IMG/VR virus record: IMGVR_UViG_3300042539_001296
Location: 1-34,685 of that record
From: a virus
DNA length: 34,685 bases
Strand: one strand, 5' to 3'
The position numbers were made by a program, and so were the translations under genes. Shown piece after piece: positions 2,922 through 23,814 of the stretch. Below the pieces are notes generated by a model that did not search any database, was not told the DNA's origin, and saw only the letters and a program-made list of their open reading frames with translations. The number at the start of each line of letters is the position of its first letter. Within the stretch, counting starts at the first letter, position 1.

Positions 2922-4016
2922 TTAGTTTCCAGTGCCGTTAGGGTAAATTGGATTACCTTCTGAATCAAGAATTGCATTACCATCATTATCTGTAAGCCAT
3001 GCAATAGAGTCGTGAGTTAACATATTCTGAGTAAAGAATATATCATATGGTTCGCAGTTAATGGTATAAACTTGTTCAATATAAGCAATTGTCTCTACTG
3101 ATGTTACTGGAACCCAGTCTCTAGCATCCAAGGACCAAACCTGATAATCTTCTGTAATCGTGTCAGACCTTACGAATGCAACAACACCATTTGAGTTCTT
3201 AGAAAGAATCAAGTGAGGAGATGTAAAAATGTCTCCATTAACAACTGTTGCAGAATCTGTTACGTATGAAGATACACCAACAACGGTTGTCTCTACTATC
3301 CCTAACGCCTCAAACTCTGATTCTGGAACATTAAAGTTTGGAATACCTTGAATTGTTGGATCTAGGTTTGCAATATCTAAAGAGTAAAGAACATCTCCAA
3401 CCTGAATTTCGCTAGCCTGTTTAATTCCATCTACTGTATGAACTCCAGTTGTTGCTCCAAGAGAAACGAATCCTGGATATCCAGGATAGATACCGTTCAT
3501 TGCAACAGTCCAGAAACTTCCATATCCGTGAGAGAAACTGTGATAGAATCCCGCATAGTGTCCAAATGATGCATAGTGTCCAAATGAGTGATAAAATCCG
3601 TGGTAGAATCCTGCGTAGTGTGCAAATGAGTGGTAGAACCCATGATAGAATCCTGCATAGTGTGCGAATGAGTGATAGAACCCGTGGTAGAATCCTGCGT
3701 AGTGATTAAATCCATGATAGAAACCATGATAAAAACCAGCGTAGTGTGCAAAGCCTGCATAGTGAGCAAAACCACTATAGACATACTGGTAATAGTTAAC
3801 GCTTACAGTTGAACCAATGTTTACCACTGTTCCTGCAGCAGTTCCCTGAGATATAATTGCCTGATCTAACCCTGCGTCGCCAGTTGTTGTTGATGACTCT
3901 GAGTATGTTAGGCCTACGGCAGTCAAAGCAGCCTGATATTGAGTTCTTGTCATTCCAGATAGATTTGGAACGCTTACCTTACGTATTCCTCTATCGCCAG
4001 TTCTTTGAATTGCCAT
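2922..4016 (-). CDS. PASTA-like / His-Tyr-Phe repeat / Hint-domain tail adhesin
   Basis: 364 residues with a three-part layout. Residues 13-76 look like one PASTA domain (VPNLSGMTRTQYQAALTAVGL and a VNIGSTVSVNY end). Residues 82-164 are near-perfect repeats of FYHGFYHSFAHYAG, made almost only of His, Tyr, Phe, Gly, Ala and Ser. Residues 185-337 fit a Hint (Hedgehog/intein) fold: S-L-G-A-T-T-G-V-H-T-V-D-G aligns to the block starting with the catalytic Cys, QVGDVLYSLD follows, a T-x-x-H motif is at 265-268, and VYTINCEPYDIFF...LTHDS ends it. The usual Cys1 is Ser185 and the usual terminal His-Asn is His-Asp. So self-cleavage, if any, would use Ser chemistry or be lost. A 27-residue tail follows. 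It lies between fibre genes and downstream operon genes, and a TATAAT box on the minus strand is at 4045-4050. Confidence 0.75.
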   Translation of the reverse strand: MAIQRTGDRGIRKVSVPNLSGMTRTQYQAALTAVGLTYSESSTTTGDAGLDQAIISQGTAAGTVVNIGSTVSVNYYQYVYSGFAHYAGFAHYAGFYHGFYHGFNHYAGFYHGFYHSFAHYAGFYHGFYHSFAHYAGFYHGFYHSFGHYASFGHYAGFYHSFSHGYGSFWTVAMNGIYPGYPGFVSLGATTGVHTVDGIKQASEIQVGDVLYSLDIANLDPTIQGIPNFNVPESEFEALGIVETTVVGVSSYVTDSATVVNGDIFTSPHLILSKNSNGVVAFVRSDTITEDYQVWSLDARDWVPVTSVETIAYIEQVYTINCEPYDIFFTQNMLTHDSIAWLTDNDGNAILDSEGNPIYPNGTGN

Positions 4017-9657: not shown

Positions 9658-9704
9658 TGGTATAGACACCTACCAGGGTGTTATTGTTTTCTAAGGAGGA
9701 AACT

Positions 9705-10268
9705 ATGATTAAATTTATCGAAAGAAACAAAGAGATCATTAGCACACTCAGTATCGTAGCATTAGTAACGGTTTTGTCGAACGGAGCCAATGCTGATTCA
9801 GGTCTTGATACGAAGAACAATCTTAGCCTTGAACAGGCTCAGACAGTAGAACCCGCCTCGAAAGAGGTTTTTTTGGTTTCTAAGGCTAAAAGGTTAGAGA
9901 GTTTTGAGAATAAGGTTTCTCTGACTGATTTGGAACTAAAGGAACTGTTATCTCTGGTTGGCTTCAAGGGCAAAGACCTTGTTGTTGCCTGGGCGGTAGC
10001 AAAGAAAGAATCTAATGGGCGACCATTAGCATTTAACGGAAACCACAAGACTGGTGACTCATCTTATGGTATGTTCCAAATTAATATGATAGACAACCTT
10101 GGTCCTGATCGTAGAACCAAGTTTGATCTTGAGTCAAACGCTGAGTTGTTTAATCCCGTAAAGAATGCAGAGATTGCATACTATATGACAAACGGTGGAG
10201 AAGACTGGTCCTCATGGAAGGGCATCACTCCAAGAACCAAATACTGGATGGCTAAATTTCCTAAATAA
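9705..10268 (+). CDS. Secreted lysozyme-like transglycosylase (endolysin candidate)
   Basis: 187 residues from the ATG at 9705, which follows a strong AAGGAGG at 9693-9699 (an upstream GTG at 9678 is ignored for that reason). The N-terminus has a signal-like segment (KEIISTLSIVALVTVLSNGANADS). The C-terminal half fits the soluble lytic transglycosylase/lysozyme-like fold: VAWAVAKKESNGRPLAFNGN with the likely catalytic Glu in AKKES, then SSYGMFQINM, the hallmark G-x-x-Q-I block. It should cleave peptidoglycan glycan strands. It is the only plus-strand gene among leftward tail genes, with its own promoter and a terminator, so lysis or entry timing may be set separately. A signal sequence suggests export without a holin. 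A virion-associated wall-digesting role is also possible. Confidence 0.8.
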   Translation: MIKFIERNKEIISTLSIVALVTVLSNGANADSGLDTKNNLSLEQAQTVEPASKEVFLVSKAKRLESFENKVSLTDLELKELLSLVGFKGKDLVVAWAVAKKESNGRPLAFNGNHKTGDSSYGMFQINMIDNLGPDRRTKFDLESNAELFNPVKNAEIAYYMTNGGEDWSSWKGITPRTKYWMAKFPK

Positions 10269-10286
10269 TCTATAAAAAATAAATTA

Positions 10287-10316
10287 CCCCCTAGAAAAAT
10301 CTGGGGGGTTTTTATT
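10287..10316 (+). terminator. Bidirectional intrinsic terminator
   Basis: CCCCC at 10287-10291 pairs with GGGGG at 10303-10307 and AGA pairs with TCT inside, with one bulged T. It is followed by a T-run on the plus strand and preceded by an A-run, so it can stop both the plus-strand lysis gene and the converging minus-strand glycosyltransferase gene. Confidence 0.8.
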
Positions 10317-11265
10317 TGTCTTGTCTTGGTGGCATCCCCAATGCACGGTTTGGCACAATCGTGTGGGATGAATAGTTTGGTATAAATTTTAGGTAATCCT
10401 TTGAAATTCCAGTATGCACAAAAAACTCTTCAACCTTTTTCTTATCGACATCCAGTTGTCCAGACATCAAAAGGGATAGCCTATCTGTTGATTTTTCTAC
10501 GTGAGACCAATAATCTTCTTTTCTGTCGTCTGCCCAAGGCCTTAGATTAGCCCTAGTGACAGATCCATCCTTTTGCTTGTGTGAAGAATGATGAAAGACA
10601 TCTCTGGTTCCTATAGAGTATATTTCCCATCCTTTACCATATGTTCTTATTGATAGGCATATCTCCTCTGTATTAAAAGATTCTTCTCCAGATATTCCAA
10701 CTTCATCAACCCAGGCTTTTGGTGCCAATAAATAACAGCATGTAGCCCAAAAAGATCTTACAGACTCTTTATACTGTAAAGTTCTATATCCAGGAAACTT
10801 AAATCCTGGTATAAGCCCTGTGTAGTAGTCACCACACATTGAAATTGTGTTAGGTATATTAAAATCGATTGATCCGTCTTCTAATATTTCGTAGTTGGCT
10901 GGAGCATATGCAATTATAAATTTATCTGATTTTTTTTTCATATTTTCATATGCACTTAAACCTTTTATATCCCAGCCATATGTTCCATATGTATGTGAAT
11001 CAAACTGAATAAAAAAGTCATAATCAAAATCAACTTCAGTTGCTAAGTTTCTTGCCCAGCAGAGGCCACCACGGTAAATTGATGTGTCATAGTGTCTATA
11101 AACAATCTGTGATTCTGGAATAAAGGAAAAATCGTAAACCTGCGTGTCTTCAGACACTAAGGAAAAATATAGGCTGTTTTTATTTTTTGCTGTTTGCCAC
11201 AAAGATTTTACTGTTGAATAAAATTCTGGATCACAGTAATTAACTACGCTAACTAAAATTTTCAC
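10312..11265 (-). CDS. GlcNAc-transferase-like glycosyltransferase
   Basis: 317 residues. The N-terminal pattern ILVSVVNYCDPEFYSTVKSL, the RGGLCWARNLA block at 65-75 and FFIQFDSHTYGTYGWD at 84-99 match the [Skp1-protein]-hydroxyproline GlcNAc-transferase-like family, where DSH is the metal/nucleotide-sugar binding triad. Later blocks FWATCCYLLAPKAW and HHSSHKQKDG also fit. GTG start overlaps the TAG of the preceding gene (TAGTG at 11267-11263), so it is coupled to a 2OG-oxygenase-like gene. In eukaryotes this GT family attaches GlcNAc to hydroxyproline, which makes the pairing with an oxygenase notable. The likely target is a virion fibre; that is inference. Confidence 0.8.
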   Translation of the reverse strand: MKILVSVVNYCDPEFYSTVKSLWQTAKNKNSLYFSLVSEDTQVYDFSFIPESQIVYRHYDTSIYRGGLCWARNLATEVDFDYDFFIQFDSHTYGTYGWDIKGLSAYENMKKKSDKFIIAYAPANYEILEDGSIDFNIPNTISMCGDYYTGLIPGFKFPGYRTLQYKESVRSFWATCCYLLAPKAWVDEVGISGEESFNTEEICLSIRTYGKGWEIYSIGTRDVFHHSSHKQKDGSVTRANLRPWADDRKEDYWSHVEKSTDRLSLLMSGQLDVDKKKVEEFFVHTGISKDYLKFIPNYSSHTIVPNRALGMPPRQDK

Positions 11266-11840
11266 TACATAGAGTCCTTAGACTCTGGCTTTCTAATGTG
11301 TGTATATAGGTGTTGTGGACCCTCAGTAAAAAACCAGTGATCTGGTTCTGTATAAAAAAAGAATGCATTTGCAACTAGGTTATGCTCTGGATCTGGGAAT
11401 TCTTCTCTCCAATGTTCCTGGTCATTACCATATGATATAACTGCATCATTTTCTTCTGGCTGAAACCTTTCCCCCTCTACGTAAAAATCCCAGGGGGTCT
11501 TATGAAAAATTGTATAGTTAATGTGATATGTGCAAGCGTTATCATCTTTATGCTTCCATAGTCTTGCTTTTTCTGTTTCATATACGCTTATAAGGCACCA
11601 TGAAGGAACAAGGGTATCAGATTCAAACTCTTCTCGTGCTAATGGCAAAAGCATTTCGTGAAATTTTCTTAATGGCTCAACTTCTGGCCTATGTGTTCCG
11701 TCCCAAATTATCCACTGATGTCGACCAAAACTATTATCAAAGGTTGTCTTATCGTTTGCCCATAAAGACATTGTAAAGTTTTGAAGATCTTTATGGTCTT
11801 GTGGGGGTAGAACATTTTTTAACAAATAAGGATTTTTCAT
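11265..11840 (-). CDS. 2OG-Fe(II) oxygenase-like protein
   Basis: 191 residues. Candidate metal ligands are H97 and D99 in RLWKHKDDNA and H143 in NDQEHWREEF, on beta strands like the double-stranded beta-helix oxygenases. NAFFFYTEPDHWF follows where the 2-oxoglutarate-binding strand would be, but a clear binding arginine is not obvious. It is followed with a one-base overlap by a glycosyltransferase of the hydroxyproline-GlcNAc type, and preceded directly (TAA then ATG) by a zinc-ribbon protein. A hydroxylate-then-glycosylate pathway acting on a phage fibre is a reasonable inference. It is distinct from the oxygenase-like gene at 29-691. Confidence 0.65.
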   Translation of the reverse strand: MKNPYLLKNVLPPQDHKDLQNFTMSLWANDKTTFDNSFGRHQWIIWDGTHRPEVEPLRKFHEMLLPLAREEFESDTLVPSWCLISVYETEKARLWKHKDDNACTYHINYTIFHKTPWDFYVEGERFQPEENDAVISYGNDQEHWREEFPDPEHNLVANAFFFYTEPDHWFFTEGPQHLYTHIRKPESKDSM

Positions 11841-12089
11841 TTACCATTTACCTAACGGACAAGTTGCTAACTCTAGTGTTGTCTTTGCTTTCATAAAGCA
11901 TCCACATTTTTTGCATTGCTTCGTTAATTTAATTAATTCTGGGCATGACTTGCATATTTCATACCTTGCTAAGGCAACCTCATCTGAAGCCTTTGCAATT
12001 GAAGGATTTACAAGATCCCAAGGTCTTGTATCTCCAAGTTTTTCTTTATATTTTGCCCAATTACTCTGTGACACTGTATGCATCACCAA
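11841..12089 (-). CDS. Zinc-ribbon protein, paralogue of the 19052 gene
   Basis: 82 residues. The C-terminal half has C-x-x-C (CKSC), C-x-x-C-x-C (CKKCGC) and a final Cys in LATCPLGKW, a pattern for one or two Zn sites. The segment KCGCFMK-x-K-(S/T)-T-L-x-x-A-x-CP-x-x-KW is shared almost residue for residue with the plus-strand protein at 19052-19252. The gene overlaps the end of the preceding small gene by 29 bases and abuts the oxygenase-like gene. Such proteins are common small phage genes and their function is unknown. Confidence 0.75.
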   Translation of the reverse strand: MVMHTVSQSNWAKYKEKLGDTRPWDLVNPSIAKASDEVALARYEICKSCPELIKLTKQCKKCGCFMKAKTTLELATCPLGKW

Positions 12090-12243
12090 TTGCGAGTTGG
12101 TCTGGATTATTTGTAACGTCTACAAATATTGGATTACTTGTGTATAGAGCCCAGGTGTGCTCATCACACATAATGGTATCTACAACATTACCGTCAATTA
12201 CTACGGCTACTTTATAATTAACTACAACTTGATTTTCTGTCAT
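12061..12243 (-). CDS. Small phage protein, unknown
   Basis: 60 residues, all-beta in appearance (NYKVAVVIDGNVVDTIMCDE), no membrane segment. A strong AGGAGGA lies just upstream of the ATG. It overlaps the zinc-ribbon gene, consistent with coupled translation. This small 'YKVAVVIDGxVVD' protein type recurs in phage tail regions, but no function is known to me. Confidence 0.7.
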   Translation of the reverse strand: MTENQVVVNYKVAVVIDGNVVDTIMCDEHTWALYTSNPIFVDVTNNPDQLAIGDAYSVTE

Positions 12244-12277: not shown

Positions 12278-14206
12278 TTATGAGGCGCAACATGAGTAAT
12301 ACCACGTTCCAGAAGTATAGGCATACCAGGATACTGTTCCGCAAGCCCCATTGCTTACACTCTGATTAGATGGGCTGCTTACAGACTTGCTTCCACTATT
12401 AACGGTTGTTCCAGTGACGCAAGTTTGATAACTAGAAGCCAGGTCTGGACCTCTTGTAGTATATGTTGCACTAGCAGTTGGTGTAGGTGCTGGCGCTGTT
12501 GGGGTTGGTGCTGGCGCTGTTGGGGTTGGTGCTGGCGCTGTTGGGGTTGGTGCTGGCGCTGTTGGGGTTGGTGCTGGCGCTGTTGGGGTTGGTGCTGGCG
12601 CTGTTGGGGTTGGTGCTGGCGCTGTTGGTGTAGGTGCTGGCGCTGTTGGGGTTGGTGTGCTACATCCAAGACCTGTATAGAATGTAACTCCAGAAGATCC
12701 ATCAGAGCACTTATACCAATTTTGCTGGTAGTTTGTGCATCCTGGACATGACCCATCTGGACATGATCCACTGAAAACGGGACCTTGTGTTATTCCATAT
12801 GTATTATTTGCTGGACATATTGGCCCTGTAGGAGTAGGCGCTGTTGGTGTAGGTGCTGGCGCTGTTGGTGTAGGTGCTGGCGCTGTTGGTGTAGGTGCTG
12901 GCGCTGTTGGTGTAGGTGCTGGCGCTGTTGGTGTAGGAGCCGTTGGTGTTGGAGTTGGTGTGCAACCTGCATTTGAACAGTTTGGAAGAGTTGCCCCAGA
13001 TTCATCTACTCCTGAATTTGTGCAAAGGTTTGTTGAATAGTCTCTTAAGTAAACTCCATTTGAATTCTTAACTTGATAATTACACTTTCCGTCATAATAT
13101 ATAAATGTATATGTATTAACGTTAACTGGTCCAGGGGTAGTTAGAGTTGCTTGTGCTGACTGAGAAGATCCAGTTTGATTTGCTCCAGAATATACCGTAA
13201 TAGTTATATCATGAGTTGTGCTTGGGGTTAGTCCAGTTGCAGAAGCAAAGCCTGCAGTTGTTCCATTAAGACTGAAACCTGCTCCACCGCCTGCTGGAAC
13301 CACAGTTAGAGAAAATGATACCTGTCCAACTGAATCCCAAGAAATTCCTGCTGTTGATTCTCCAGTAACTATTGATGATAAATTAGAAACCGATAACGTA
13401 GGAGCCGTAGGCGTTGGTGCAGTTGGGGTTGGTGCTGGCGCTGTTGGTGTAGGTGCTGGCGCTGTTGGTGTAGGTGCTGGCGCTGTTGGTGTAGGTGCTG
13501 GCGCTGTTGGTGTAGGAGCCGTTGGTGTAGGCGCTGTTGGGGTTGGTGCCGTAGGTGTAGGCGCTGTTGGTGTAGGGGCAACATTTTCATATATGTCTCC
13601 AGACAAAGACCAAGTATTTGTGTCGAGTTTAATCAATGTTGCTTTTGAAAATTGACCATCTAAAGACATTACGTTGTTTTTGCTTTTTACTGATACTGAA
13701 ACACTCTCTGGAGAGATTGTGGTTGAGCCAGTTCCAAGTTGAATAATATCTACAGAATATCCAACTGGTATAGCAGTTGTTAAATTTGCGGGGACTGTAA
13801 TAGTTGTTGCTGATGAGGAATCAACCGTAATAACTCTTGAGTTATCTGCTGCAGCAAGCGTATAACTTGAGAGTTTAGATGTAATGGTCTTATATCCAGA
13901 AATATTTTGCCAGATAGTTCCATCAAAATATTGTAACTGATCAACCCTAACTGAATTTTCATTTTCAGCAATAAAGCAAACAAGACCTCTTACTGGCTGA
14001 GTTAAAACTTGATCTCTATGAGTTGGGTTATTAAAATTATTAACACCTGCTTTTGCATTAATGACATCATTTGTTGTGACAGGAGCACCGTATGTGTGTG
14101 TTCCACTCCATGTATAATTTAGGGCAGTGTTTGCAGCACCAGAAATTGCATACCAAGTTCCGTTTTGATAAATATATGCAGTTTTTCCAATGTTGTTAAT
14201 TGCCAC
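12278..14206 (-). CDS. Tail fibre with three Pro-Thr-Ala linkers and Cys-rich modules
   Basis: 642 residues from a GTG start that overlaps the preceding TAG (TAGTG). Residues 1-209 form an N-terminal fibre region with a repeated WYAISG/GTIWQNISG motif. Three linkers of PAPTPTA repeats lie at 210-269, 416-461 and 517-578. Between linkers 1 and 2 is an FN3-like domain (about 270-358) and a Cys-containing module (YYDGKCNYQV...STNLCTNSG). Between 2 and 3 is a compact module with eight cysteines (CPDGSCPGC...WYKCSDG...GLGCS). The C-terminal 60 residues hold four more cysteines and end CCAS. It reads as beads on stiff, probably glycosylatable, strings. The next genes downstream encode a glycosyltransferase and an oxygenase-like protein. 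Confidence 0.75.
   Translation of the reverse strand: MAINNIGKTAYIYQNGTWYAISGAANTALNYTWSGTHTYGAPVTTNDVINAKAGVNNFNNPTHRDQVLTQPVRGLVCFIAENENSVRVDQLQYFDGTIWQNISGYKTITSKLSSYTLAAADNSRVITVDSSSATTITVPANLTTAIPVGYSVDIIQLGTGSTTISPESVSVSVKSKNNVMSLDGQFSKATLIKLDTNTWSLSGDIYENVAPTPTAPTPTAPTPTAPTPTAPTPTAPAPTPTAPAPTPTAPAPTPTAPAPTPTAPTPTAPTLSVSNLSSIVTGESTAGISWDSVGQVSFSLTVVPAGGGAGFSLNGTTAGFASATGLTPSTTHDITITVYSGANQTGSSQSAQATLTTPGPVNVNTYTFIYYDGKCNYQVKNSNGVYLRDYSTNLCTNSGVDESGATLPNCSNAGCTPTPTPTAPTPTAPAPTPTAPAPTPTAPAPTPTAPAPTPTAPTPTGPICPANNTYGITQGPVFSGSCPDGSCPGCTNYQQNWYKCSDGSSGVTFYTGLGCSTPTPTAPAPTPTAPAPTPTAPAPTPTAPAPTPTAPAPTPTAPAPTPTAPAPTPTAPAPTPTASATYTTRGPDLASSYQTCVTGTTVNSGSKSVSSPSNQSVSNGACGTVSWYAYTSGTWYYSCCAS
12473..12658. 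repeat. 21-bp tandem repeat tract 3
   Basis: About nine near-identical 21-bp units (plus-strand core GGTGCTGGCGCTGTTGGGGTT) encode PAPTPTA on the minus strand, residues 517-578 of the fibre. The high DNA identity suggests recent expansion and possible copy-number variation. Confidence 0.9.
12824..12961. repeat. 21-bp tandem repeat tract 2
   Basis: About six units like tract 3, but most read GTTGGTGTAGGT where tract 3 has GTTGGGGTTGGT, so the tracts expanded independently or partly converted one another. Encodes residues 416-461. Confidence 0.85.
13400..13579. repeat. Tandem repeat tract 1 (15- and 21-bp units)
   Basis: Mixed units encode PTPTA (15 bp) and PAPTPTA (21 bp), residues 210-269. 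The ends are degenerate and the centre is near-identical, a common pattern for slippage-grown arrays. Confidence 0.85.
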
Positions 14207-14313
14207 TATTTAATTATCTCCAATGCCCTTAGTTCTGCCTCTGTTAATCCTAGAGAAAGAAGTTTGCCAATTGCTCTCTCTTTTAAAATTTCTTTTTCGC
14301 TTGTCTTTGGCAT
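14206..14313 (-). CDS. 35-residue helical micro-protein
   Basis: MPKTSEKEILKERAIGKLLS then LGLTEAELRALEIIK: a charged, amphipathic helix pair with an L-G-L-T-x-x-E turn. Its ATG overlaps the TAA of the preceding gene (TAATG) and its TAG overlaps the GTG of the fibre gene (TAGTG), so it is coupled on both sides, which strongly supports it as a gene. Small helical proteins in this position can be fibre chaperones or minor structural subunits; function unknown. Confidence 0.7.
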   Translation of the reverse strand: MPKTSEKEILKERAIGKLLSLGLTEAELRALEIIK

Positions 14314-14750
14314 TATGCACCAATCTCTCTCCACCCAAGAGTTGTATCATAAATATACATCTTAAGTGGTGTTGAGTTTTTGTCTACCCATAAAGTTCCC
14401 TCTGTGATAGTTCCTGTTGGTGCTAAATTTTGATAAATAGCATTAGGATATTCTGTTAATGATGCTCCGCTTTCTGAGTCTACCCAAATATATCCATTTG
14501 GAATATCTGATGGCTCAGTATCTGAATATTCCGATCCTGGACCATTGTCCTCAAGAACCTGAACACGTGTCTTTAAAGCCTTTAGGTGGCCTGCTACGGA
14601 ATCTGAAATTATATTTGACTCATTTGTAGTTGAGGTATCGTATGTAGATGAGCCGTAGTGGTATAGTCTTAGGGCTGCTTGAATATCCGCAGCATCCTCA
14701 TAACCAGGAATTTGAGTTTTAAAAAGTTGTCCTATTTCAATAGCAGCCAT
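14313..14750 (-). CDS. Small tail-appendage protein
   Basis: 145 residues. Residues 1-60 are helical (GYEDAADIQAALRLYHYGSS), followed by a linker (GPGSEYSDTEPSDIPNGYIW) and a repeat of W-V-D (YIWVDSESG, TLWVDKNST), then YIYDTTLGWREIGA. The WxD/WREIG pattern resembles attachment modules at the ends of phage fibres. AGGAG precedes the ATG, and a TATAAT box is at 14767-14772. It heads the fibre transcription unit. Confidence 0.7.
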   Translation of the reverse strand: MAAIEIGQLFKTQIPGYEDAADIQAALRLYHYGSSTYDTSTTNESNIISDSVAGHLKALKTRVQVLEDNGPGSEYSDTEPSDIPNGYIWVDSESGASLTEYPNAIYQNLAPTGTITEGTLWVDKNSTPLKMYIYDTTLGWREIGA

Positions 14751-14767: not shown

Positions 14768-15352
14768 TTATACCACAGTAATCAATAAATGGACTGTTTT
14801 GGTTCCAGTTAAAGATCTCCAGGCCCCTTCGTGGAATTCAGAAGCATTAATAGTTATTGGAAGATTGATGATATCTGTTGTGTCAATAGGTAAAATATTA
14901 ATTGATGAGGCAGTTGGCGTAGAACCAATAATTTGGCATTGAACGCTAAAGTTTAGTTCTGAAATATTTGTGACCTCTGTGGTAGAAGAAAGAATATCAA
15001 AAATAGGGATGGTAATTGTTGCTAACCCCTCAACAAAACTTGTTGTTTTATTTGTTGCATATATTGATGGAGTTAACTTAAGTATATGCTGCCAAACTGG
15101 TCCTCCTGGCTCAGACTTATATTGATAAAGATATGAGAAATCTTCACTAGTATTTTGTAAATTAATATATAAGTCATTTACCTTCAGTGGAACGCTATTT
15201 CCAATCACTGTGCTTACACTGTTGGGGTTTCCATTACCTGCAAAAATATAACTACCACGATCACCCTGTGCACCCAGATCTACTGCTAAGTCTATTTTTT
15301 CTGGTCCGCCAATAATTGTAATTTCGTCTGTAGATAGTAATACTTCTGCCAT
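14768..15352 (-). CDS. Tail-appendage protein, unknown
   Basis: 194 residues, beta-rich, beginning MAEVLLSTDEITIIGGPEKI, with a short GAQGDRGSY segment reminiscent of the collagen-like neighbours. Its ATG overlaps the upstream stop codon at 15352. No named family recognised. Its place in a chain of BppU-like and collagen-like proteins suggests a baseplate or side-fibre role. Confidence 0.65.
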   Translation of the reverse strand: MAEVLLSTDEITIIGGPEKIDLAVDLGAQGDRGSYIFAGNGNPNSVSTVIGNSVPLKVNDLYINLQNTSEDFSYLYQYKSEPGGPVWQHILKLTPSIYATNKTTSFVEGLATITIPIFDILSSTTEVTNISELNFSVQCQIIGSTPTASSINILPIDTTDIINLPITINASEFHEGAWRSLTGTKTVHLLITVV

Positions 15353-15696
15353 TATGCTACCGTGATATCCTCTGTAACATTAATAACTCCAGTCAAAAGG
15401 GTATAAATTTTTGTTGCACCCTTTTTAACTTCTACGTCATAATAATAGGTTGTTCCTGCTATCAACTGTCTTCCAGTTGCAGGTAATATTGAGCAAGCAA
15501 CAAAAGAGTTATTGTCGCTAATAGAGGCTGTAGCAATTTTTGCGTTTGCACTTTGTCCTCTTGCCGTGTCTATTGTAAACTTTACTTCATAACCATCTAA
15601 ATCAAATGCGCTATTGTCATTTAGTTTTGGGTATATGTTAAACTCAAGAGTGTCACCTCTGTAATAATTAATATCATAAGTTGCTGGAAATGCCAT
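15352..15696 (-). CDS. BppU-N-like baseplate protein
   Basis: 114 residues from the ATG at 15696, which has GGAGG just upstream (15702-15706); the frame is open further. DINYYRGDTLEFNIYPKLND followed by FDLDGYEVKFTID is the typical start of the BppU N-terminal-like domain, and it ends with a strand YTLLTGVINVTEDIT. It is the second of three such proteins. A TATAAT box at 15712-15717 overlaps the stop of the upstream gene. Confidence 0.65.
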   Translation of the reverse strand: MAFPATYDINYYRGDTLEFNIYPKLNDNSAFDLDGYEVKFTIDTARGQSANAKIATASISDNNSFVACSILPATGRQLIAGTTYYYDVEVKKGATKIYTLLTGVINVTEDITVA

Positions 15697-15712
15697 AATT
15701 CCTCCTGTTTTA

Positions 15713-16441
15713 TTATACCATGCTGACATATATAGATTTAAGAATTACTGAAGCGTCATAGTCAGTTCTAATTTGTGGAACTGCTCCGTTACCCCAGACC
15801 TTCTGATTTTCTATAAAAACATGCTGTGTTACTGTTATTGGGTAAGTGTGTTGATATTTTAAAGACCCAATAAATTGAGAGACTTCTAAATCGCTGTTTT
15901 GCGAGTATGTTCTTATCCAAACCTCAGTATTGCTGCTATAGGTGGTTAGTTCAAAACTATATGTTATGAATACTTGAGCACCCTCTTCAAGTCCCCTAAA
16001 ATTAAAGGCCCTTGAGTGATCGTTCCATAATGGGGTGCATCCTTTAGGAAGATACTTTTCATTTGACAATCCATCAGATATTAAATATACTGTTGCCCAA
16101 CCGTCATCTCCTTCAGATATACCAAGTTTAAATGGTTTTTCAATTTTGTTGTGATAGGATGCCCACCCTGATTGTTGTCCTGAAGAGGATAAAGAACTAA
16201 GACCATCTTTACCTGCTGGTCCTGGTTGGCCTTTTGGTCCCGATTTTCCTTCTGGTCCTTGTGGCCCCTCTTTACCGTCTTTGCCATCCCTACCTGCAGG
16301 TCCTTGTGGTCCGACTGGACCAGGAACTGGAAGAAATGACAAAACATTGTCTTGTGTAAATGATGACTGGCTTTGTTCTACTTGCTCAGCATAAGATGTT
16401 TTTTTGTGGGCAGGAAAATCCATAGATTTAGAAACAGCCAT
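15713..16441 (-). CDS. Collagen-like tail protein
   Basis: 242 residues. Residues about 40-80 are Gly-X-Y triplets (GPVGPQGPAGRDGKDGKEGP and on), which form a triple-helical stalk in phage fibres. The C-terminal about 150 residues are a beta-rich head rich in aromatics (SGWASYHNKI, GDDGWATVYL) and may bind the receptor. Its partner gene at 16462-17064 is also collagen-like. A trimeric receptor-binding protein is likely. Confidence 0.75.
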   Translation of the reverse strand: MAVSKSMDFPAHKKTSYAEQVEQSQSSFTQDNVLSFLPVPGPVGPQGPAGRDGKDGKEGPQGPEGKSGPKGQPGPAGKDGLSSLSSSGQQSGWASYHNKIEKPFKLGISEGDDGWATVYLISDGLSNEKYLPKGCTPLWNDHSRAFNFRGLEEGAQVFITYSFELTTYSSNTEVWIRTYSQNSDLEVSQFIGSLKYQHTYPITVTQHVFIENQKVWGNGAVPQIRTDYDASVILKSIYVSMV

Positions 16442-16461
16442 GGATACATTATCTCACTATA

Positions 16462-17064
16462 TTAAGTCAATGACTCTATAGATGTAATGATTCCATTGAC
16501 TACTGAAACTATCTTACTATCTGATGTTTGGAATGTTCCTGTTGCTCCCGTTGGTAATTCAGCATCTGCACCTTTAGCAGAAACTAAAAGCCAACCATTT
16601 GCTGGTGGGGCGTATGATGAAAATTGTCCATTGGGATGATAGTAGGTAGATCCTTCAAATTCAACTACAGATCCAGGACCATAATCAATTCCATTTACCC
16701 ATGGACCAGTAAAGTTCCAAAGTGCATCTGCACCGTCAGCGCCGTTTGTTCCATCTGCACCATCTTCTCCTTTAGGAATAAATATATCCCACTGTAAAGG
16801 ATTAGCAACAGGACTTAATAGTCCGCCACTTGCTTTTGCAATATATAAATTATTGTCGGCGCCTTTCACAACTGCAATATTTGCAATGTATCCGTTACCT
16901 GAAACATAATCTCCCAAGTAAACAAGACCAGGACTTCCATCTGCACCGTTGGTTCCATTATTTCCTGCTGGTCCCTGCGGACCTGTGTTGCCAGTGTCAC
17001 CTTTAGGACCTTGTGGTCCAACTACTGCCACTCCAGGCATTGGAACAATCTTAATAACTGCCAT
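16462..17064 (-). CDS. Collagen-like protein with carbohydrate-binding-type module
   Basis: 200 residues. Gly-X-Y repeats at about 16-46 and a shorter set at about 98-112 flank a beta module. Residues about 115-160 (ALWNFTGPWVNGIDYGPGSV, then YYHPNGQFSSYAPPANGWLL) resemble the small chitin/carbohydrate-binding modules often found on phage fibres, with W-x-x-G-x-x-Y and a Pro-x-Asn-x-x-Trp end. It ends in a short segment repeated in form in other fibres. The ATG overlaps the previous stop at 17064. Binding to a host surface glycan is inferred. Confidence 0.75.
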   Translation of the reverse strand: MAVIKIVPMPGVAVVGPQGPKGDTGNTGPQGPAGNNGTNGADGSPGLVYLGDYVSGNGYIANIAVVKGADNNLYIAKASGGLLSPVANPLQWDIFIPKGEDGADGTNGADGADALWNFTGPWVNGIDYGPGSVVEFEGSTYYHPNGQFSSYAPPANGWLLVSAKGADAELPTGATGTFQTSDSKIVSVVNGIITSIESLT

Positions 17065-20295: not shown

Positions 20296-20469
20296 ATGGG
20301 CAAATATAAAGATAAGAAGTGGCTCGAAGAGCAATATGTGGATAATGAGAAATCAATAGACACCTTAGCACAGATGTGCAATGTCGACAAAAAGGTTATT
20401 ATTTATTATCTAAACGAATTTAGGATCTATCGTAAATACAATCACGATAAACATCCTATGCGTTGGTAG
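20296..20469 (+). CDS. Small helix-turn-helix protein B
   Basis: 57 residues (MGKYKDKKWLEEQYVDNEKS...), paralogue of the 19422 gene by the W-L-E-x-x-Y-V entry helix, the I-x-x-L/I-A-x-x-C helix and the Y-(H/Y)-L-(E/N) recognition helix, then a basic tail (RIYRKYNHDKHPMRW). It lies 2 bases after the methyltransferase stop. Its last codons overlap the end of the oppositely oriented gene at 20456-20650. Confidence 0.65.
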   Translation: MGKYKDKKWLEEQYVDNEKSIDTLAQMCNVDKKVIIYYLNEFRIYRKYNHDKHPMRW

Positions 20470-20650
20470 AGCATTGGCAGTTATCACAGCATTGTTCTTT
20501 GAACATCTTTAGTGCCAAACCATCATTATCAGGACGACCTAGATCTTCCCAAAATTTCTCTCTACCCATAGCATCTGTCTCTACTAGTGGCTTTGACTCA
20601 AACAAGAAATCTTCATCCCAGGCATTTTCAAAATTGTCTAATATTCCCAT
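20456..20650 (-). CDS. Small acidic protein with C-terminal Cys motif, leaderless
   Basis: 64 residues, starting MGILDNFENAWDEDF and ending in a Cys cluster (CCDNCQC). The ATG at 20650 is six bases from a TATAAT box at 20657-20662, so a leaderless start is predicted; the open frame extends slightly upstream. Small proteins with an N-terminal MGILD-x-x-E-x-x-W-D pattern recur in actinophages, with unknown function. Confidence 0.65.
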   Translation of the reverse strand: MGILDNFENAWDEDFLFESKPLVETDAMGREKFWEDLGRPDNDGLALKMFKEQCCDNCQCSTNA

Positions 20651-20744
20651 GAATTCATTATACCCCAAATCTGAAAAAATTTGTAAAACTCAAATAGCCT
20701 AAAATCTGAATATTTTATCCAAGTGTATGATACAGGTTTATAAG

Positions 20745-20807
20745 AAAAATAAAGTAAAAATATAGTGAGCACATCATAGCGCAAACTTTTCTTCTTACTT
20801 TATTTTT
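20745..20807. repeat. A/T-rich 12-bp perfect inverted repeat
   Basis: AAAAATAAAGTA at 20745-20756 and TACTTTATTTTT at 20796-20807, with a 39-nt spacer. The arms extend to about 16 bp if one base is bulged. It lies between two minus-strand genes, in a 215-bp gap without a gene, just downstream of a G/C-rich hairpin. Confidence 0.6.
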
Positions 20808-20835
20808 TCTTTTATTGTTTTGTTAGTAGTGTAGT

Positions 20836-20864
20836 GGGTGGGTGATCTTTCACACCCCTACCCC
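20836..20864 (-). terminator. Likely terminator of the minus-strand cluster
   Basis: Read on the minus strand, a GGGTAGGGGTGTG arm and a CACCCACCC arm form an imperfect G/C-rich hairpin directly after the stop of the 20866-21156 gene. There is no long T-run, so strength is uncertain. Confidence 0.45.
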
Positions 20865-20865
20865 C

Positions 20866-21156
20866 TCACTTTGCTTTGGATATCATTGGCACCACTACCC
20901 TGTCGTAGTGTTTTCGTAATTGCTTAGTTTCGCTTACTGTATCTCTAGCGATTTTATCAAGACCTAAGTCTCTGACTACCTTGCTAGTTTCTACTACGAT
21001 AGTTTTAGCGAATGCAACACCTAATAATTTTAATCCAATAGGTATTGCAACAACCGCACCAATAGTTAGGACTACAATAACAATAGCCATAAAAATCAGT
21101 GAGTATTGGACTATATTAGCAAACCACTCAAAAGGGCTACTTAAAAAATCTAACAA
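20866..21156 (-). CDS. Small membrane protein
   Basis: 96 residues from a TTG start with GAGGAG upstream; that ribosome-binding site overlaps the stop of the preceding gene. A long hydrophobic stretch at about 16-50 (YSLIFMAIVIVVLTIGAVVA then IPIGLKLLGVAFA) forms one or two membrane helices. The rest is a charged, helical C-terminal tail (ETKQLRKHYDRVVVPMISKAK). It may be a phage superinfection-exclusion or membrane-anchoring protein, but nothing identifies it. Confidence 0.65.
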   Translation of the reverse strand: MLDFLSSPFEWFANIVQYSLIFMAIVIVVLTIGAVVAIPIGLKLLGVAFAKTIVVETSKVVRDLGLDKIARDTVSETKQLRKHYDRVVVPMISKAK

Positions 21157-21168
21157 TATAAAACTCCT

Positions 21169-21372
21169 CTAGTCTGATGTAGTGAATGATGATGTAGGTG
21201 TAAGTGAGTCTAGATATTCTTGACGCACCTTAGACATAACTCTATCTATCTGTGCGTATGCGTTAGCACACTTATAGCAATAGGTTTCTGTGTTAATGCC
21301 TAGCATAAAGGCATCTGTTCCACTATAAACTAGTTCTGTTGATTCACAGTTAATTACTTGACATGTTTTCAT
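21169..21372 (-). CDS. Small zinc-finger-like protein
   Basis: 67 residues. CQVINC and CYKC give two Cys pairs about 30 apart (C4/C9 and C32/C35), fitting a Zn ribbon. The C-terminal half is helical and rich in Ser/Thr at the end (TPTSSFTTSD). Belongs to a leftward micro-gene cluster. Function unknown. Confidence 0.6.
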   Translation of the reverse strand: MKTCQVINCESTELVYSGTDAFMLGINTETYCYKCANAYAQIDRVMSKVRQEYLDSLTPTSSFTTSD

Positions 21373-21376
21373 TTAT

Positions 21377-21481
21377 TTATCTCTTTTCTTTTGTGCATAA
21401 GCAGGGGTTGATTGTTATTTGTTTACCCTTTTGGGTAACGATTGCTAGTGTGCTACATTGTGAGCATAGGTATAAGTGCAT
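21377..21481 (-). CDS. 34-residue Cys-containing micro-protein
   Basis: MHLYLCSQCSTLAIVTQKGK then QITINPCLCTKEKR. C6-x-x-C9 and C28-x-C30 make a candidate Zn ribbon. The ATG overlaps the TAA of the upstream micro-gene (TAATG at 21483-21479), and its stop is four bases before the next gene, which supports translation. Confidence 0.55.
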   Translation of the reverse strand: MHLYLCSQCSTLAIVTQKGKQITINPCLCTKEKR

Positions 21482-21573
21482 TAGAATTCACTATCCTTAT
21501 CTAGTATGGTAGGGATAAGCGCTACTAGTGTTACCACTATGGCAGACGCAATAACGATAATGTAGAGGGTCAT
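21481..21573 (-). CDS. 30-residue membrane micro-protein
   Basis: MTLYIIVIASAIVVTLVALI then PTILDKDSEF: a single hydrophobic helix followed by an acidic end. It overlaps both neighbours by the TAATG pattern (21575-21571 and 21483-21479). The four overlapping genes form one translational chain. Confidence 0.6.
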   Translation of the reverse strand: MTLYIIVIASAIVVTLVALIPTILDKDSEF

Positions 21574-21779
21574 TAGTTATTTTCCTCTCTAGTTAGAATA
21601 AAGTCACGATTGTGCTTATTTAACTCAAAAATAGCACCATTAGAACAGATAACACGCATAGCGTTACCATTCCACTTTCTAATTTTAATAATGACCCCTG
21701 ATTTAACAAGGTTCATAGATGTAGGTAGGGTAATGGTATCTCCTACCTCAATGTTAGAGTAGTTACTTAATGTAGTCAT
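21573..21779 (-). CDS. Small beta-rich protein, unknown
   Basis: 68 residues (MTTLSNYSNIEVGDTITLPT...), with a VGDTI-x-L and GVIIKIRKW pattern like small SH3-like/beta-barrel proteins; KNHNRDF at the end. An AAAGGTGG ribosome-binding site precedes the ATG. First gene of the leftward micro-gene cluster that starts in the divergent control region. Confidence 0.6.
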   Translation of the reverse strand: MTTLSNYSNIEVGDTITLPTSMNLVKSGVIIKIRKWNGNAMRVICSNGAIFELNKHNRDFILTREENN

Positions 21780-21849
21780 TTATAGACCACCTTTCTTTTT
21801 AATGCGATATCTATTTGATACCTTTTTCCTTGCCTAGTGTTATTTGCTC

Positions 21850-22074
21850 TTATTTGCTACGCTCACCCTATTGCTAGGTTTATTTGGTAGGCTCAGAGGC
21901 TCAACTAGGATTTATCCTTATTTAATTTTTCTTACTATGTAAGTGTAACAGATAAATGTCATACTGTCTAGTATACTCACTAGTAGTCTCACTATGTGGA
22001 GCGTGGACTATGTGATTTAGGTCACTTATTCGCTAGGCTCATATAACAATTCGTTATCTTATTTGCTAGGCTCA
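21850..22074. repeat. Four dispersed copies of a 16-bp repeat
   Basis: TTATTTGCTAGGCTCA and close variants start at 21850, 21880, 22026 and 22059. Two reverse-orientation copies (TGAGCCT-A/T-AGCAAATAA) are at 23697 and 23732. Spacing within pairs is 30, 33 and 35 bp. Confidence 0.7.
22011..22026. promoter_or_regulatory. CRP/GlxR-like palindrome (weak)
   Basis: TGTGATTTAGGTCACT. One arm is degraded. Lies on the left side of the divergent region. Confidence 0.45.
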
Positions 22075-22075
22075 T
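22022..22075 (-). CDS. Possible 17-residue leader peptide
   Basis: MSLANKITNCYMSLANK, with AAAAAAGG a few bases upstream on the minus strand. The peptide repeats MSLANK because it is made of two copies of the 16-bp repeat. Too short to be sure; a coincidence of the repeat containing a start codon is the main alternative. Confidence 0.25.
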   Translation of the reverse strand: MSLANKITNCYMSLANK

Positions 22076-22162
22076 TGACCTTTTTTATCCCTATTTAATT
22101 TTCTATAAGAGAATAATAACATAGATAAGCCTAAAAGTCAAGTCCTAACACGGCGTGTCGTG

Positions 22163-22178
22163 TGTGATTCGCATCACA
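22163..22178. promoter_or_regulatory. CRP/GlxR-like palindrome
   Basis: TGTGATTCGCATCACA: perfect TGTGAT/ATCACA arms around four bases. Immediately right of a CGGCGTGTCG motif and left of the 26-bp array. Confidence 0.6.
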
Positions 22179-22192
22179 AGTGCCCGATGAAA

Positions 22193-22296
22193 ATGACCAT
22201 ACATGTGCGTATACGCCTATGATCAGTCATGGGTATATACGCCTATGACCATACATGGGTGGGGGTGCCTATGACCAGTCATATATACCTCGGCGA
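22193..22296. repeat. Iteron-like array, four units exactly 26 bp apart
   Basis: Unit starts at 22193, 22219, 22245 and 22271 with the head ATGA-C/T-CA and an ACAT or TCAT, then a TATACGCCT-like tail in the first two units. The constant 26-bp period puts each head on nearly the same face of the helix. Binding of a replication initiator or repressor is inferred. Confidence 0.75.
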
Positions 22297-22298
22297 AA

Positions 22299-22330
22299 TG
22301 TGTCCTACATCACATATGACCTACATCACA
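22299..22330. promoter_or_regulatory. Two overlapping CRP-like half-palindromes
   Basis: TGTGTCCTACATCACA (22299-22314) directly followed by TATGACCTACATCACA (22315-22330). Only the right arm, ATCACA, is intact in each. Their centres are about 85 and 70 bp upstream of the first TGTCAG promoter's predicted start. Confidence 0.4.
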
Positions 22331-22363
22331 ATGTCCGATTTACCCTATTTATACCCTCCAAAA

Positions 22364-22385
22364 TGTCAGACCCCCCTGCTATACT
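22364..22385 (+). promoter_or_regulatory. TGTCAG-N10-TATACT promoter 1
   Basis: TGTCAG at 22364 and TATACT at 22380-22385. Drives the genes from 22446. No TTGACA-like -35 at the normal spacing. Confidence 0.7.
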
Positions 22386-22445
22386 TACTAGTATAAAGAA
22401 AGTTAAATAAAGGTTATTTAACGAAAAAAGAAAGGTTAGGTCAAA

Positions 22446-22643
22446 ATGACTAACACTAAAAAAATAGACACAATGAGTTTCCTCATTGACAATGACATCT
22501 GCGTAATGGATAACATCTGCGTATTCTGCTCAATCCGTATGGATGGATGGGATAGGTTCTGCCGTAAGTGTAAAGACTATAAAGGCGTAATGGATGTCTA
22601 TCAAGCCGTAGAAAACTACGGAATAGAAATCCTAGGATTTTAA
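22446..22643 (+). CDS. Small zinc-ribbon protein
   Basis: 65 residues. CVFC at 25-28 and CRKC at 39-42 form a clear Zn ribbon, then a helical tail (VMDVYQAVENYGIEILGF). GAAAGG lies upstream of the ATG. First gene of the rightward micro-gene region. Function unknown; DNA or RNA binding is likely for such ribbons. Confidence 0.65.
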   Translation: MTNTKKIDTMSFLIDNDICVMDNICVFCSIRMDGWDRFCRKCKDYKGVMDVYQAVENYGIEILGF

Positions 22644-22711
22644 TAAAAACTTAATAAATAAAAAACTTAATAAAATAAATTTAACTAACAAAAAAAGAAA
22701 GGTTGTCAAAA

Positions 22712-22891
22712 ATGATAACACTAGAAAATAAAAAGTGCGTAGAGCACAATCCAATGAAATCTGCTATCTCAGAGGTTTCAGATACACAATACACTTTCTG
22801 CCAAGATTGTGAAAATAACATTGAGCGTTGGTATAACGATACTGACCCAGAGCGTCTACCTATGTGGACAGATTGGAAGGTTTCTAAATAA
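22712..22891 (+). CDS. Small Cys-containing protein
   Basis: 59 residues from the ATG at 22712 with AGAAAGG upstream; a TTG at 22703 is a less likely start. C9-x3-H and CQDC make a putative Zn site. Ends with PMWTDWKVSK. Next gene starts in its stop (TAATG). Confidence 0.6.
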   Translation: MITLENKKCVEHNPMKSAISEVSDTQYTFCQDCENNIERWYNDTDPERLPMWTDWKVSK

Positions 22892-23007
22892 TGAACCTTG
22901 ATGAATACAAAAAATTCGTAAATGATAAGCGTTTAATGTCAAAAATTGACGCTATGGCAATTCTTGCAAATACTAGAAAGAAAACTGAGGAAAACAATGA
23001 AAACTAA
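22891..23007 (+). CDS. 38-residue micro-protein
   Basis: MNLDEYKKFVNDKRLMSKID then AMAILANTRKKTEENNEN. Charged and helical. Coupled at its start by TAATG and overlapping the next gene by 11 bases. Confidence 0.55.
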   Translation: MNLDEYKKFVNDKRLMSKIDAMAILANTRKKTEENNEN

Positions 23008-23158
23008 TTTTGAGATTGCACAAGAAATAAATACTCTTGCTAAAAAACACTATGGTGAAATGGATTTAGCATTTTCTTGGGGTTGTGCCCAAGCATTGCT
23101 AACTGTAAAACAATTAGAGTTAATTCTTGGAATACTAAAAGAAAAAGAGGTTGCGTAA
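22997..23158 (+). CDS. Small helical protein, unknown
   Basis: 53 residues from the ATG at 22997 (GAGGAAAA upstream); the open frame reaches 22946 but would overlap the preceding gene more. MKTNFEIAQEINTLAKKHYG then EMDLAFSWGCAQ. Next gene coupled by TAATG. Confidence 0.55.
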   Translation: MKTNFEIAQEINTLAKKHYGEMDLAFSWGCAQALLTVKQLELILGILKEKEVA

Positions 23159-23250
23159 TGAAAGATTTACAAACTAAACTAGATTTGGTTGCTAAAGAGT
23201 TAGAACCAATACTTTGGGATTTACTAGATGAGATTGAGGAAAATAAATGA
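23158..23250 (+). CDS. 30-residue acidic micro-protein
   Basis: MKDLQTKLDLVAKELEPILW then DLLDEIEENK: an amphipathic, coiled-coil-like helix. Both ends overlap neighbours (TAATG at 23156-23160, ATGA at 23247-23250). Confidence 0.5.
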   Translation: MKDLQTKLDLVAKELEPILWDLLDEIEENK

Positions 23251-23336
23251 TTGACTTTTTTGTAAGCGGTAATGCTCTCTTTTGGTTTTCTATGATCTGT
23301 TTAATAAGTGGATTTTATTTATTCGTTACTGAATAA
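23247..23336 (+). CDS. 29-residue membrane micro-protein
   Basis: MIDFFVSGNALFWFSMICLI then SGFYLFVTE: a single membrane helix. Last gene of the operon; a hairpin follows eight bases later. Confidence 0.5.
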   Translation: MIDFFVSGNALFWFSMICLISGFYLFVTE

Positions 23337-23343
23337 ATTTTCC

Positions 23344-23359
23344 CCGAGATTTTCCTCGG
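23344..23359 (+). terminator. CCGAG/CTCGG hairpin
   Basis: CCGAG (23344-23348), loop ATTTTC, CTCGG (23355-23359). No T-run, so it may act through Rho or as an RNA end-protecting hairpin. The same hairpin recurs at 24628, 26145, 27477 and 29683. Confidence 0.5.
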
Positions 23360-23365
23360 CCCGTT

Positions 23366-23381
23366 TGTGGTGTAAATCACA
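23366..23381. promoter_or_regulatory. CRP/GlxR-like palindrome
   Basis: TGTGGTGTAAATCACA, centred about 74.5 bp upstream of the predicted start of the promoter at 23413-23441. Confidence 0.55.
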
Positions 23382-23412
23382 CTAAAAATGTCCGTTTTGT
23401 GCGTGTCTAAAC

Positions 23413-23441
23413 TTGACTTTTTGAGATTTCTCTGCTATACT
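23413..23441 (+). promoter_or_regulatory. Sigma70-type promoter
   Basis: TTGACT (23413-23418), 17-bp spacer, TATACT (23436-23441). Feeds the 34-residue gene at 23491. Confidence 0.7.
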
Positions 23442-23490
23442 TCTAGTATAAAGAAAATTGAGAAAGGTTCTCAAATTGAAAGGAGTCCAA

Positions 23491-23595
23491 ATGGACTATA
23501 ACGACTACTATGATGAAATTTACCTTGAAATTTATGAGGAGTTTGGCGCTGAAAGCGTTTCAGACCCAGCCTACGCTGAATCCCTAAAAAAGTGA
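23491..23595 (+). CDS. 34-residue acidic micro-protein
   Basis: MDYNDYYDEIYLEIYEEFGA then ESVSDPAYAESLKK, strongly acidic and Tyr-rich. AAAGGAG lies at the right distance before the ATG, and its own canonical promoter precedes it, so it is a monocistronic gene. Acidic Tyr-rich mini-proteins of phages can mimic DNA or bind host enzymes; this is a guess. Its stop codon is inside the next CRP-like site. Confidence 0.65.
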   Translation: MDYNDYYDEIYLEIYEEFGAESVSDPAYAESLKK

Positions 23596-23606
23596 TGTAA
23601 ATCACA
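23591..23606. promoter_or_regulatory. CRP/GlxR-like palindrome
   Basis: AGTGATGTAAATCACA. Central TA as in the GlxR consensus. Centre 64.5 bp upstream of the predicted start of the next promoter. Confidence 0.6.
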
Positions 23607-23627
23607 AAAACTAGACGGCGTGTCGTC

Positions 23628-23656
23628 TTGACTTTTTGCCCCTAGTGTGATAGTCT
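23628..23656 (+). promoter_or_regulatory. Sigma70-type promoter with no clear gene
   Basis: TTGACT (23628-23633), 17-bp spacer, TAGTCT (23651-23656). Its transcript would first meet only a five-codon frame (MSLSK at 23696), then the next promoter, so it may make a short leader RNA or feed the 23815 gene. Confidence 0.55.
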
Positions 23657-23696
23657 TACTACATAAGAAAAACTAAATAAAGGACAAATTGGCTAA

Positions 23697-23748: not shown

Positions 23749-23758
23749 GTAGCCAAAA

Positions 23759-23780
23759 TGTCAGACCCCTGTGATAGGAT
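23759..23780 (+). promoter_or_regulatory. TGTCAG-N10-TAGGAT promoter 2
   Basis: TGTCAG at 23759, TAGGAT at 23775-23780. Drives the four-gene operon from 23815. Confidence 0.7.
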
Positions 23781-23814
23781 AGTCTTATCACTTAAAAAAA
23801 GAAAGGTGGTTCTA

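Follow-up and report, generated by a model that had tools for sequence, protein, structure and literature searches.

Whether a phage could hydroxylate the prolines of its own tail fibre and then attach sugars to the modified protein is the question raised by a virus record of 34,685 bases from IMG/VR (IMGVR_UViG_3300042539_001296; G+C 38.6%), which was analysed over its whole length and is termed here the window. An open reading frame with a GTG start at positions 12278-14206 on the minus strand translates into a fibre protein of 642 amino acids that carries three Pro-Thr-Ala tracts built of PAPTPTA/PTPTA repeats. Two genes further along the same strand encode a predicted Fe(II) oxygenase of prolyl-hydroxylase fold, N (191 amino acids, 11265-11840), and a protein glycosyltransferase of the PF11397 (GT60-type) family, M (317 amino acids, 10312-11265). 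The initial annotation, made from the sequence alone, had proposed that N and M act on the fibre. We estimate a probability of roughly two in three that the locus serves a freshwater actinobacterial phage as a cassette for modifying its tail fibre, in which N would hydroxylate and M would glycosylate the stalks of the fibre.

The fibre is composed of a conserved N-terminal tail domain of about 205 amino acids, a weakly fn3-like middle, Cys-rich spacers and the three tracts, and it matches the minor tail protein family phrog_8780 (E 8e-12), phrog_21978 and, weakly, fn3 (E 0.015). The tracts lie exactly at the residues at which they had been annotated, namely 210-269 (tract 1, 13400-13579), 416-461 (tract 2, 12824-12961) and 517-578 (tract 3, 12473-12658), all on the minus strand. 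Also borne out were the claims that they are built of 21-bp DNA units and that tracts 2 and 3 spell these units differently: the unit of tract 2 reads CCTACACCAACAGCGCCAGCA and that of tract 3 CCAACCCCAACAGCGCCAGCA, tract 1 consisting of PTPTA and PAPTPTA units in mixed codon spelling. Tandem Repeats Finder detected a 21-bp array in each tract, at 13407-13516 in tract 1 (92% match, score 178), at 12837-12937 in tract 2 (100% match, score 202) and at 12477-12657 in tract 3 (96% match, score 334). The tracts together comprise 168 residues; of the 88 prolines and 117 threonines in the fibre, 70 and 55, respectively, fall within them, and the densest 40 residues of the protein hold eight Thr-Pro pairs, as compared to a mean of 3.5 and a maximum of seven in 1000 shuffles of the same residues. 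When 10,000 bases were aligned with the near-identical locus L003 (related loci are designated by L numbers), we observed zero mismatches and one gap, corresponding to seven residues or one 21-bp unit of tract 3, the window being the longer of the two, with assembly collapse a possible cause. In the closest relatives that do differ, L046-L048, the flanking domains are conserved and the tracts are plain (TP)n, indicating that tract sequence turns over fast with tract position largely kept.

The AlphaFold model of N, obtained from 26 sequences, is of high predicted quality (predicted local distance difference test, pLDDT, 90.8; predicted template modelling score 0.87). When it was compared to the PDB with Foldseek, the best 19 matches were all prolyl hydroxylases, including human PHD2 (E 2.9e-7), a Pseudomonas P4H, Dictyostelium PhyA (6t8m) and a Trichoplax PHD, with E values between 2.9e-7 and 1.5e-6 for the top matches PHD2, P4H and PhyA; in a viral library the fold matched cyanophage proteins annotated as prolyl 4-hydroxylase. 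The HxD...H iron triad (H97, D99 and H143) is invariant in close relatives and also wherever it could be aligned in 30 distant members. A label of "ferrochelatase", carried by the best PHROG for N, was dropped, since fold and triad suit an Fe(II) oxygenase. In the N gene of one relative, L094:995-1579, the segment IFHKTPWDFY(V/A), 11 residues, is duplicated in frame when compared to L074. As for M, its annotation as a glycosyltransferase was confirmed by a PF11397 match of E 1.8e-21 (77.4 bits against a cut-off of 21), and its DSH metal motif, D89-S90-H91, is invariant in 21 relatives. The model of M (pLDDT 83) has a GT-A-like fold whose best 22 PDB matches by Foldseek are polypeptide N-acetylgalactosamine (GalNAc) transferases. 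Sequence searches of the PDB with the profiles of N and of M gave no usable match.

If the enzymes act on the tracts, tract type and enzyme content should travel together in related phages. Control loci were fetched by the neighbouring gene S, a conserved phrog_1084-like gene (15352-15729, minus strand), and by the motif DIQAALRLYHYG, borne by relatives of the conserved structural gene Q (14313-14750, minus strand), which lies immediately upstream of the fibre; neither tracts nor enzymes served as anchors because circularity was to be avoided. Clustering left 98 de-duplicated loci, each with a complete interval from the anchor to the lysozyme gene or the K/J gene. The tract rule, set before the control loci were fetched, called for a stretch of 30 residues in which Pro made up at least 30% and P, T, A, S and V together at least 85%, and an oxygenase was counted if it belonged either to the N family or to a second, PF13640-type family. 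A measure based on Thr-Pro pairs per 40 amino acids was rejected, having misfiled L224 (Ala-Pro-Val tracts) and L222 and L314 (FTPFGF repeats), and the composition rule was used for the final count. Fibres with such small-residue/Pro tracts were followed by an oxygenase in 29 of 34 loci, whereas only two of the remaining 64 had one (Fisher p=1.8e-17), and fibres whose tracts at the same position were of Phe-Pro type only had none (0/12; p=1.6e-7 against tract-bearing fibres). The five tract-positive exceptions include L123, whose contig has an N gene at another place, L154 and L169, where a cupin gene occupies the slot, and L249, which has a weak P4H match. Natural controls are provided by L124, L134, L152, L167, L171 and L172, whose long (PPFFPFF)n tracts have neither an oxygenase nor a PF11397 transferase adjoining.

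With tract DNA as the sole bait, an oxygenase was found within five genes in all 31 non-redundant loci of the phage group that had downstream room and in 6 of 8 other low-GC loci lacking the marker genes of the group; loci outside the group with fewer than five units had none (0/9). Loci without N usually have a different oxygenase in its place: in L122 and L160, the slot is taken by a PF13640 enzyme that shows the canonical HxD...H...R pattern. This looks like enzyme replacement for the same job, and some loci hold both. The transferase slot is more variable, being filled by PF11397, GT61 or a weak O-fucosyltransferase match; epimerases, a nucleotidyltransferase or a sulfotransferase match lie near it, and some loci have sugar-nucleotide enzymes in its stead. 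Of seven loci with Thr-rich, Pro-poor fibres, such as those with (TTTTAAP)n in L149 and L168, six had a PF11397-type transferase and none had an oxygenase; overall, a PF11397-like transferase accompanied 11 of 16 Thr-rich fibres and 3 of 82 others (p=1.2e-8; tree-corrected median p 0.016). The transferase thus tracks threonine and the oxygenase tracks small-residue proline. In L149:11556-15971, L168 and L191, the (TTTTAAP)n fibre is followed by a radical-SAM/SPASM protein and a PF11397 transferase, with an epimerase as well in L149, and these loci possibly represent another fibre-modifying cassette, one lacking an oxygenase.

The initial annotation had staked its proposal on both genes being conserved with the Pro-Thr fibre in relatives. 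For the oxygenase, neither count, anchored or tract-baited, refuted this; the glycosyltransferase is less constant, although of 16 loci fetched through the transferase subfamily of the window alone, the window included, 15 have an oxygenase upstream. The sole exception, L004, has no qualifying tract. Taken with the adjacency of the N and M genes, the two coupling rates (15/16 for the transferase subfamily and 29/34 for the tracts) served as a proxy for a pairing like that of PhyA and Gnt1 in protists.

That the two enzyme genes share an operon with the fibre, as had been annotated, is supported by the tight layout of the genes. Downstream of the fibre the order is P, O, N and M; the start codon of N abuts the stop of O, the GTG start of M overlaps the stop of N, and a strong terminator-like hairpin, ACCCCCTAGAAAAATCTGGGGGGT, at 10286-10309 separates M from a convergent lysozyme/SLT-like gene (9678-10268, plus strand; PF18896, E 5e-16). 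The latter was found in 95 of the 98 loci and closes the cassette in the window as in most of its relatives. P (12061-12243, minus strand) encodes a small protein of 60 amino acids whose only counterparts are in close relatives, together with a weak match in L189. O (11841-12089, minus strand) encodes 82 amino acids with a zinc-ribbon-like CxxC...CxxCGC pattern; it matches phrog_13558 (E 1.9e-15) and comes near DUF6171 (E 1.5e-5, under the cut-off). O usually adjoins an oxygenase, lying upstream of it (73 of N type and 27 of PF13640 type in 151 cases, not de-duplicated), and it is fused N-terminally to the glycosyltransferase in L042:96-1304 (the same protein occurs in L043) and in L293:6252-7439, which suggests that O works with the transferase.

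Several observations weigh against the proposal that N and M modify the tracts. The loci are linked genes of one phage group, and plain Fisher tests are therefore inflated by shared descent: when a tree built from three linked genes was used, about 5.8 independent pairs agreed with the association between tract and oxygenase and 0.5 ran counter to it (median p 0.06), a tree-corrected support that is consistent but modest. The HMM (hidden Markov model) of the second oxygenase family had been seeded from tract-positive loci, and the general PF13640 model was therefore run on 86 records as a check; it gave few matches within the interval outside tract-positive loci, in L120/L121 and L164 and, more weakly, in L139 and L314. 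In L120:8808-10262 and in L121, a long (INT)n repeat fibre is followed by two PF13640 oxygenases, and enzymes of this family may act on Asn, Ile or Thr repeats too. With respect to N itself, the TM-scores (template modelling scores) of its model to solved prolyl hydroxylases are only about 0.6, and the nucleic-acid demethylase AlkB and the amino-acid hydroxylase Bacillus IDO come in at ranks 20-21 among its PDB matches. The annotation of N as oxygenase-like is backed by the fold prediction and goes without confirmation from Pfam or NCBIfam, in which no oxygenase family matches N, the PHROG label pointing elsewhere. Moreover, the basic residue that holds 2-oxoglutarate, expected 9-10 positions after the last iron histidine, is absent, the positions after H143 including R145 at +2 and N154 at +11, so that the contact with the co-substrate would be unusual. 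R145, present in all members, or K114, present in close members only, may stand in for the missing Arg/Lys. In JmjC-type enzymes, the 2-oxoglutarate Lys is likewise placed elsewhere.

Other explanations of the locus have to be weighed against these data. N and M could work in parallel, with M glycosylating the tract threonines directly, in the manner of mucin-type transferases, and N independently hydroxylating prolines to stiffen the stalk; this corresponds to the threonine branch of the explanation that we prefer, set against a strict hydroxyproline order, and we regard it as rather unlikely. It would account for the transferases that accompany Thr-rich, Pro-poor fibres in the absence of an oxygenase, it agrees with the Thr/Ser GalNAc-transferases that are the structural neighbours of M, and GT60 includes, beside Gnt1, which needs hydroxyproline, a polypeptide N-acetylglucosamine (GlcNAc) transferase of Trypanosoma cruzi (PMC6939170). 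However, the transferases of the Thr-rich fibres are distant from the subfamily of the window (E 1e-9 to 1e-24 against its profile), and the coupling of this subfamily to an oxygenase is a better fit to a hydroxyproline acceptor. Less probable still is that the enzymes have another target, for instance glycans on the host surface, a small molecule or the DNA of the phage, and merely happen to be located next to the fibre in a variable host-interaction region. Tail-fibre regions are indeed variable islands in phages of freshwater Actinobacteria, DNA or cell-wall glycosylation has been put forward by the authors for the glycosyltransferase of isolated Nanopelagicales phages (PMC10202952), and epimerases and further sugar enzymes are found in the cassettes as well. 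Location alone cannot explain, however, why the oxygenase tracks the residues of the tract, being present in 29 of 34 tract-bearing loci and in none of the 12 with Phe-Pro tracts only, nor its presence in 6 of the 8 low-GC loci without the marker genes of the group.

We consider it improbable that N hydroxylates another residue of the fibre, for instance Lys or Asn, or the two collagen-like structural proteins T and U encoded upstream (15713-17064, minus strand; PF01391, E 9.7e-8 and 3.7e-7), and not the tract prolines. T and U do lie in the same cluster, collagens being classical substrates of prolyl hydroxylases, and the PF13640 oxygenases of L120 adjoin a fibre with Ile-Asn-Thr repeats. The collagen-like genes were nevertheless rejected as the target because relatives of T occur in 90 of the 98 loci irrespective of the oxygenase, most of them without one: collagen-like repeats do not predict the oxygenase, and proline tracts do. 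The idea that the tracts are no more than linkers prone to slippage, with unrelated bystander genes next to them, finds some encouragement in the near-perfect 21-bp repeats, which change by whole units, and in the wide occurrence of flexible Pro-Thr linkers in nature; it would nonetheless demand that coincidence account both for the linkage statistics and for the way in which enzyme type matches tract type, and we hold it to be very improbable.

In the modification of the fibre by N and M that we favour, a single operon would be used during infection to make both the fibre, with its three extended stalks of Pro-Thr-Ala repeats, and the enzymes acting on it inside the cell. N would hydroxylate stalk prolines using Fe(II), O2 and probably 2-oxoglutarate; M would then add a sugar to the stalks, probably GlcNAc or GalNAc from a uridine diphosphate (UDP) sugar, with either the new hydroxyproline or a neighbouring threonine as acceptor, and the zinc-ribbon-like protein O would probably recruit the glycosyltransferase to its substrate. 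The product could be a stiff, hydrophilic and protease-resistant stalk between binding domains, resembling a mucin or an arabinogalactan protein. The acceptor of the Trypanosoma cruzi GT60 enzyme is mucin Thr. Since a related transferase accompanies Thr-rich fibres that have no oxygenase, Thr could be the acceptor in place of a proline first hydroxylated and then glycosylated, whereas the near-obligate coupling of the window's transferase subfamily to an oxygenase argues for hydroxyproline. Provided that the tracts are modified at all, we give hydroxyproline slightly better than even odds as the acceptor and threonine slightly worse than even.

The host can be approached through relatives of the window. 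The DNA of the cluster gave no match among 50,697 records of cultured phages. In protein searches of cultured phages, S had no match, and the sole matches of N and M were to the S-SM1 "ferrochelatase" (29%) and to XacN1 (22%), respectively. No relatives of N or S were found in GTDB genomes, and consequently no host could be read from binned contigs. The long relatives, 13 contigs of 102-119 kb with a common structural cluster, encode WhiB in all 13 cases, and in a control the WhiB model fired in 1 of 14 control genomes, namely Corynebacterium. WhiB has been described as confined to Actinobacteriota and as a key marker of actinophages (PMC10202952), pointing to actinobacterial hosts; since no WhiB was found in the window fragment, its host assignment rests on these relatives. 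A PF03237 terminase was not detected in the long relatives. In isolated Nanopelagicales phages, two collagen-like proteins and a portion of the tail fibre are encoded in the variable island (PMC10202952).

Several further features were observed in the window. A structural-looking protein with a PASTA domain is encoded at 2922-4016 (minus strand); it carries Tyr/His-rich FYHGFYH and HYAGF tandem repeats, with 42/84-bp DNA repeats at 3570-3752, and a weakly Hint/intein-like C-terminal half. Similar C-termini end several fibres of relatives (L120, L180 and L222). At 702-2184 (minus strand), the adjacent and related-looking genes B and C share "LPKWW/LPVWW" motifs, and their relatives recur in the tail regions of other phages (L016 and L039). 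A stretch of about 6 kb (20300-26600) contains very short open reading frames only, many of the plausible ones on the plus strand, opposite to the tail operon. A single tRNA-Asp gene is located at 30917-30991, and a tandem array of 3.1 copies of a unit of about 34 bp lies at the contig end (34570-34676).

The nearest known pathway is the Skp1 pathway of protists such as Dictyostelium and Toxoplasma, which, like the present locus, combines a cytoplasmic PHD-type prolyl hydroxylase, PhyA, with a subsequently acting transferase of GT60/PF11397 type, Gnt1. The Skp1 pathway modifies a single Pro of a folded protein (PMC6939170), whereas the presumed target here is a set of long repeat tracts in a virion fibre, and the Skp1 enzymes share very low sequence identity with N and M, whose roles are predicted. 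The model of M is nearest in fold to the mucin-type GalNAc-transferases (GT27), and the tracts resemble mucin repeats. Tracts of (Ala/Thr-Pro)n also resemble the hydroxyproline glycomodules of plant arabinogalactan proteins. The enzymes that modify mucins and arabinogalactan proteins reside in the eukaryotic secretory pathway, whereas N and M would act in the bacterial cytoplasm. A viral prolyl hydroxylase is also encoded by Chlorella virus PBCV-1, a virus of eukaryotic algae, and reportedly acts on Pro-Ala-Pro-Lys repeat substrates. Evidence for hydroxyproline in viral proteins accompanies this prolyl 4-hydroxylase in the account of Eriksson 1999, as cited in PMC9301287 and PMC7019647. In a study of Baltic Sea viruses, P4HA was among the abundant viral genes and its viral use was called cryptic (PMC9301287). 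For PBCV-1, we found no report of an operon joining the hydroxylase, its substrate fibre and a hydroxyproline-type transferase.

Among phages of Actinobacteria, mycobacteriophages bear glycans on virion proteins that are said to originate from phage-encoded glycosyltransferases. According to PMC12619734, which cites Freeman et al. 2023, these glycans are located on the C-termini of capsid and tail-tube subunits; in contrast to the situation here, that text mentions neither a hydroxylase nor Pro-Thr fibre tracts. Collagen-like phage tail proteins (PMC3368898) likewise form low-complexity repeat stalks, and two such genes adjoin the fibre of the window; their repeats are Gly-X-Y and not Pro-Thr, and in these phages they do not predict an oxygenase. 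No report of phage hydroxyproline, or of a fibre cassette combining hydroxylase and transferase, was found in a literature search that left most subscription journals outside its reach.

More generally, we tentatively propose, at somewhat less than even odds, that actinobacterial phages possess a modular cassette that hydroxylates prolines and glycosylates their own fibre stalks, its enzymes being matched to the repeat type (an oxygenase for Thr/Ala/Val-Pro, a transferase alone for Thr-rich repeats and neither for most Phe-Pro repeats) and swapped between lineages. If this is true, phages would make hydroxyproline glycoproteins in the bacterial cytoplasm, a modification so far tied mainly to eukaryotes and the viruses that infect them, and the gene of each fibre would lie next to those of the enzymes that modify it. 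The proposal would also explain part of the variable island found in freshwater actinophages and would provide compact enzymes with which hydroxyproline or mucin-like polymers could be made in bacteria. Finally, many unexplained 2-oxoglutarate oxygenases of phages would gain a testable substrate in the tract encoded next door.

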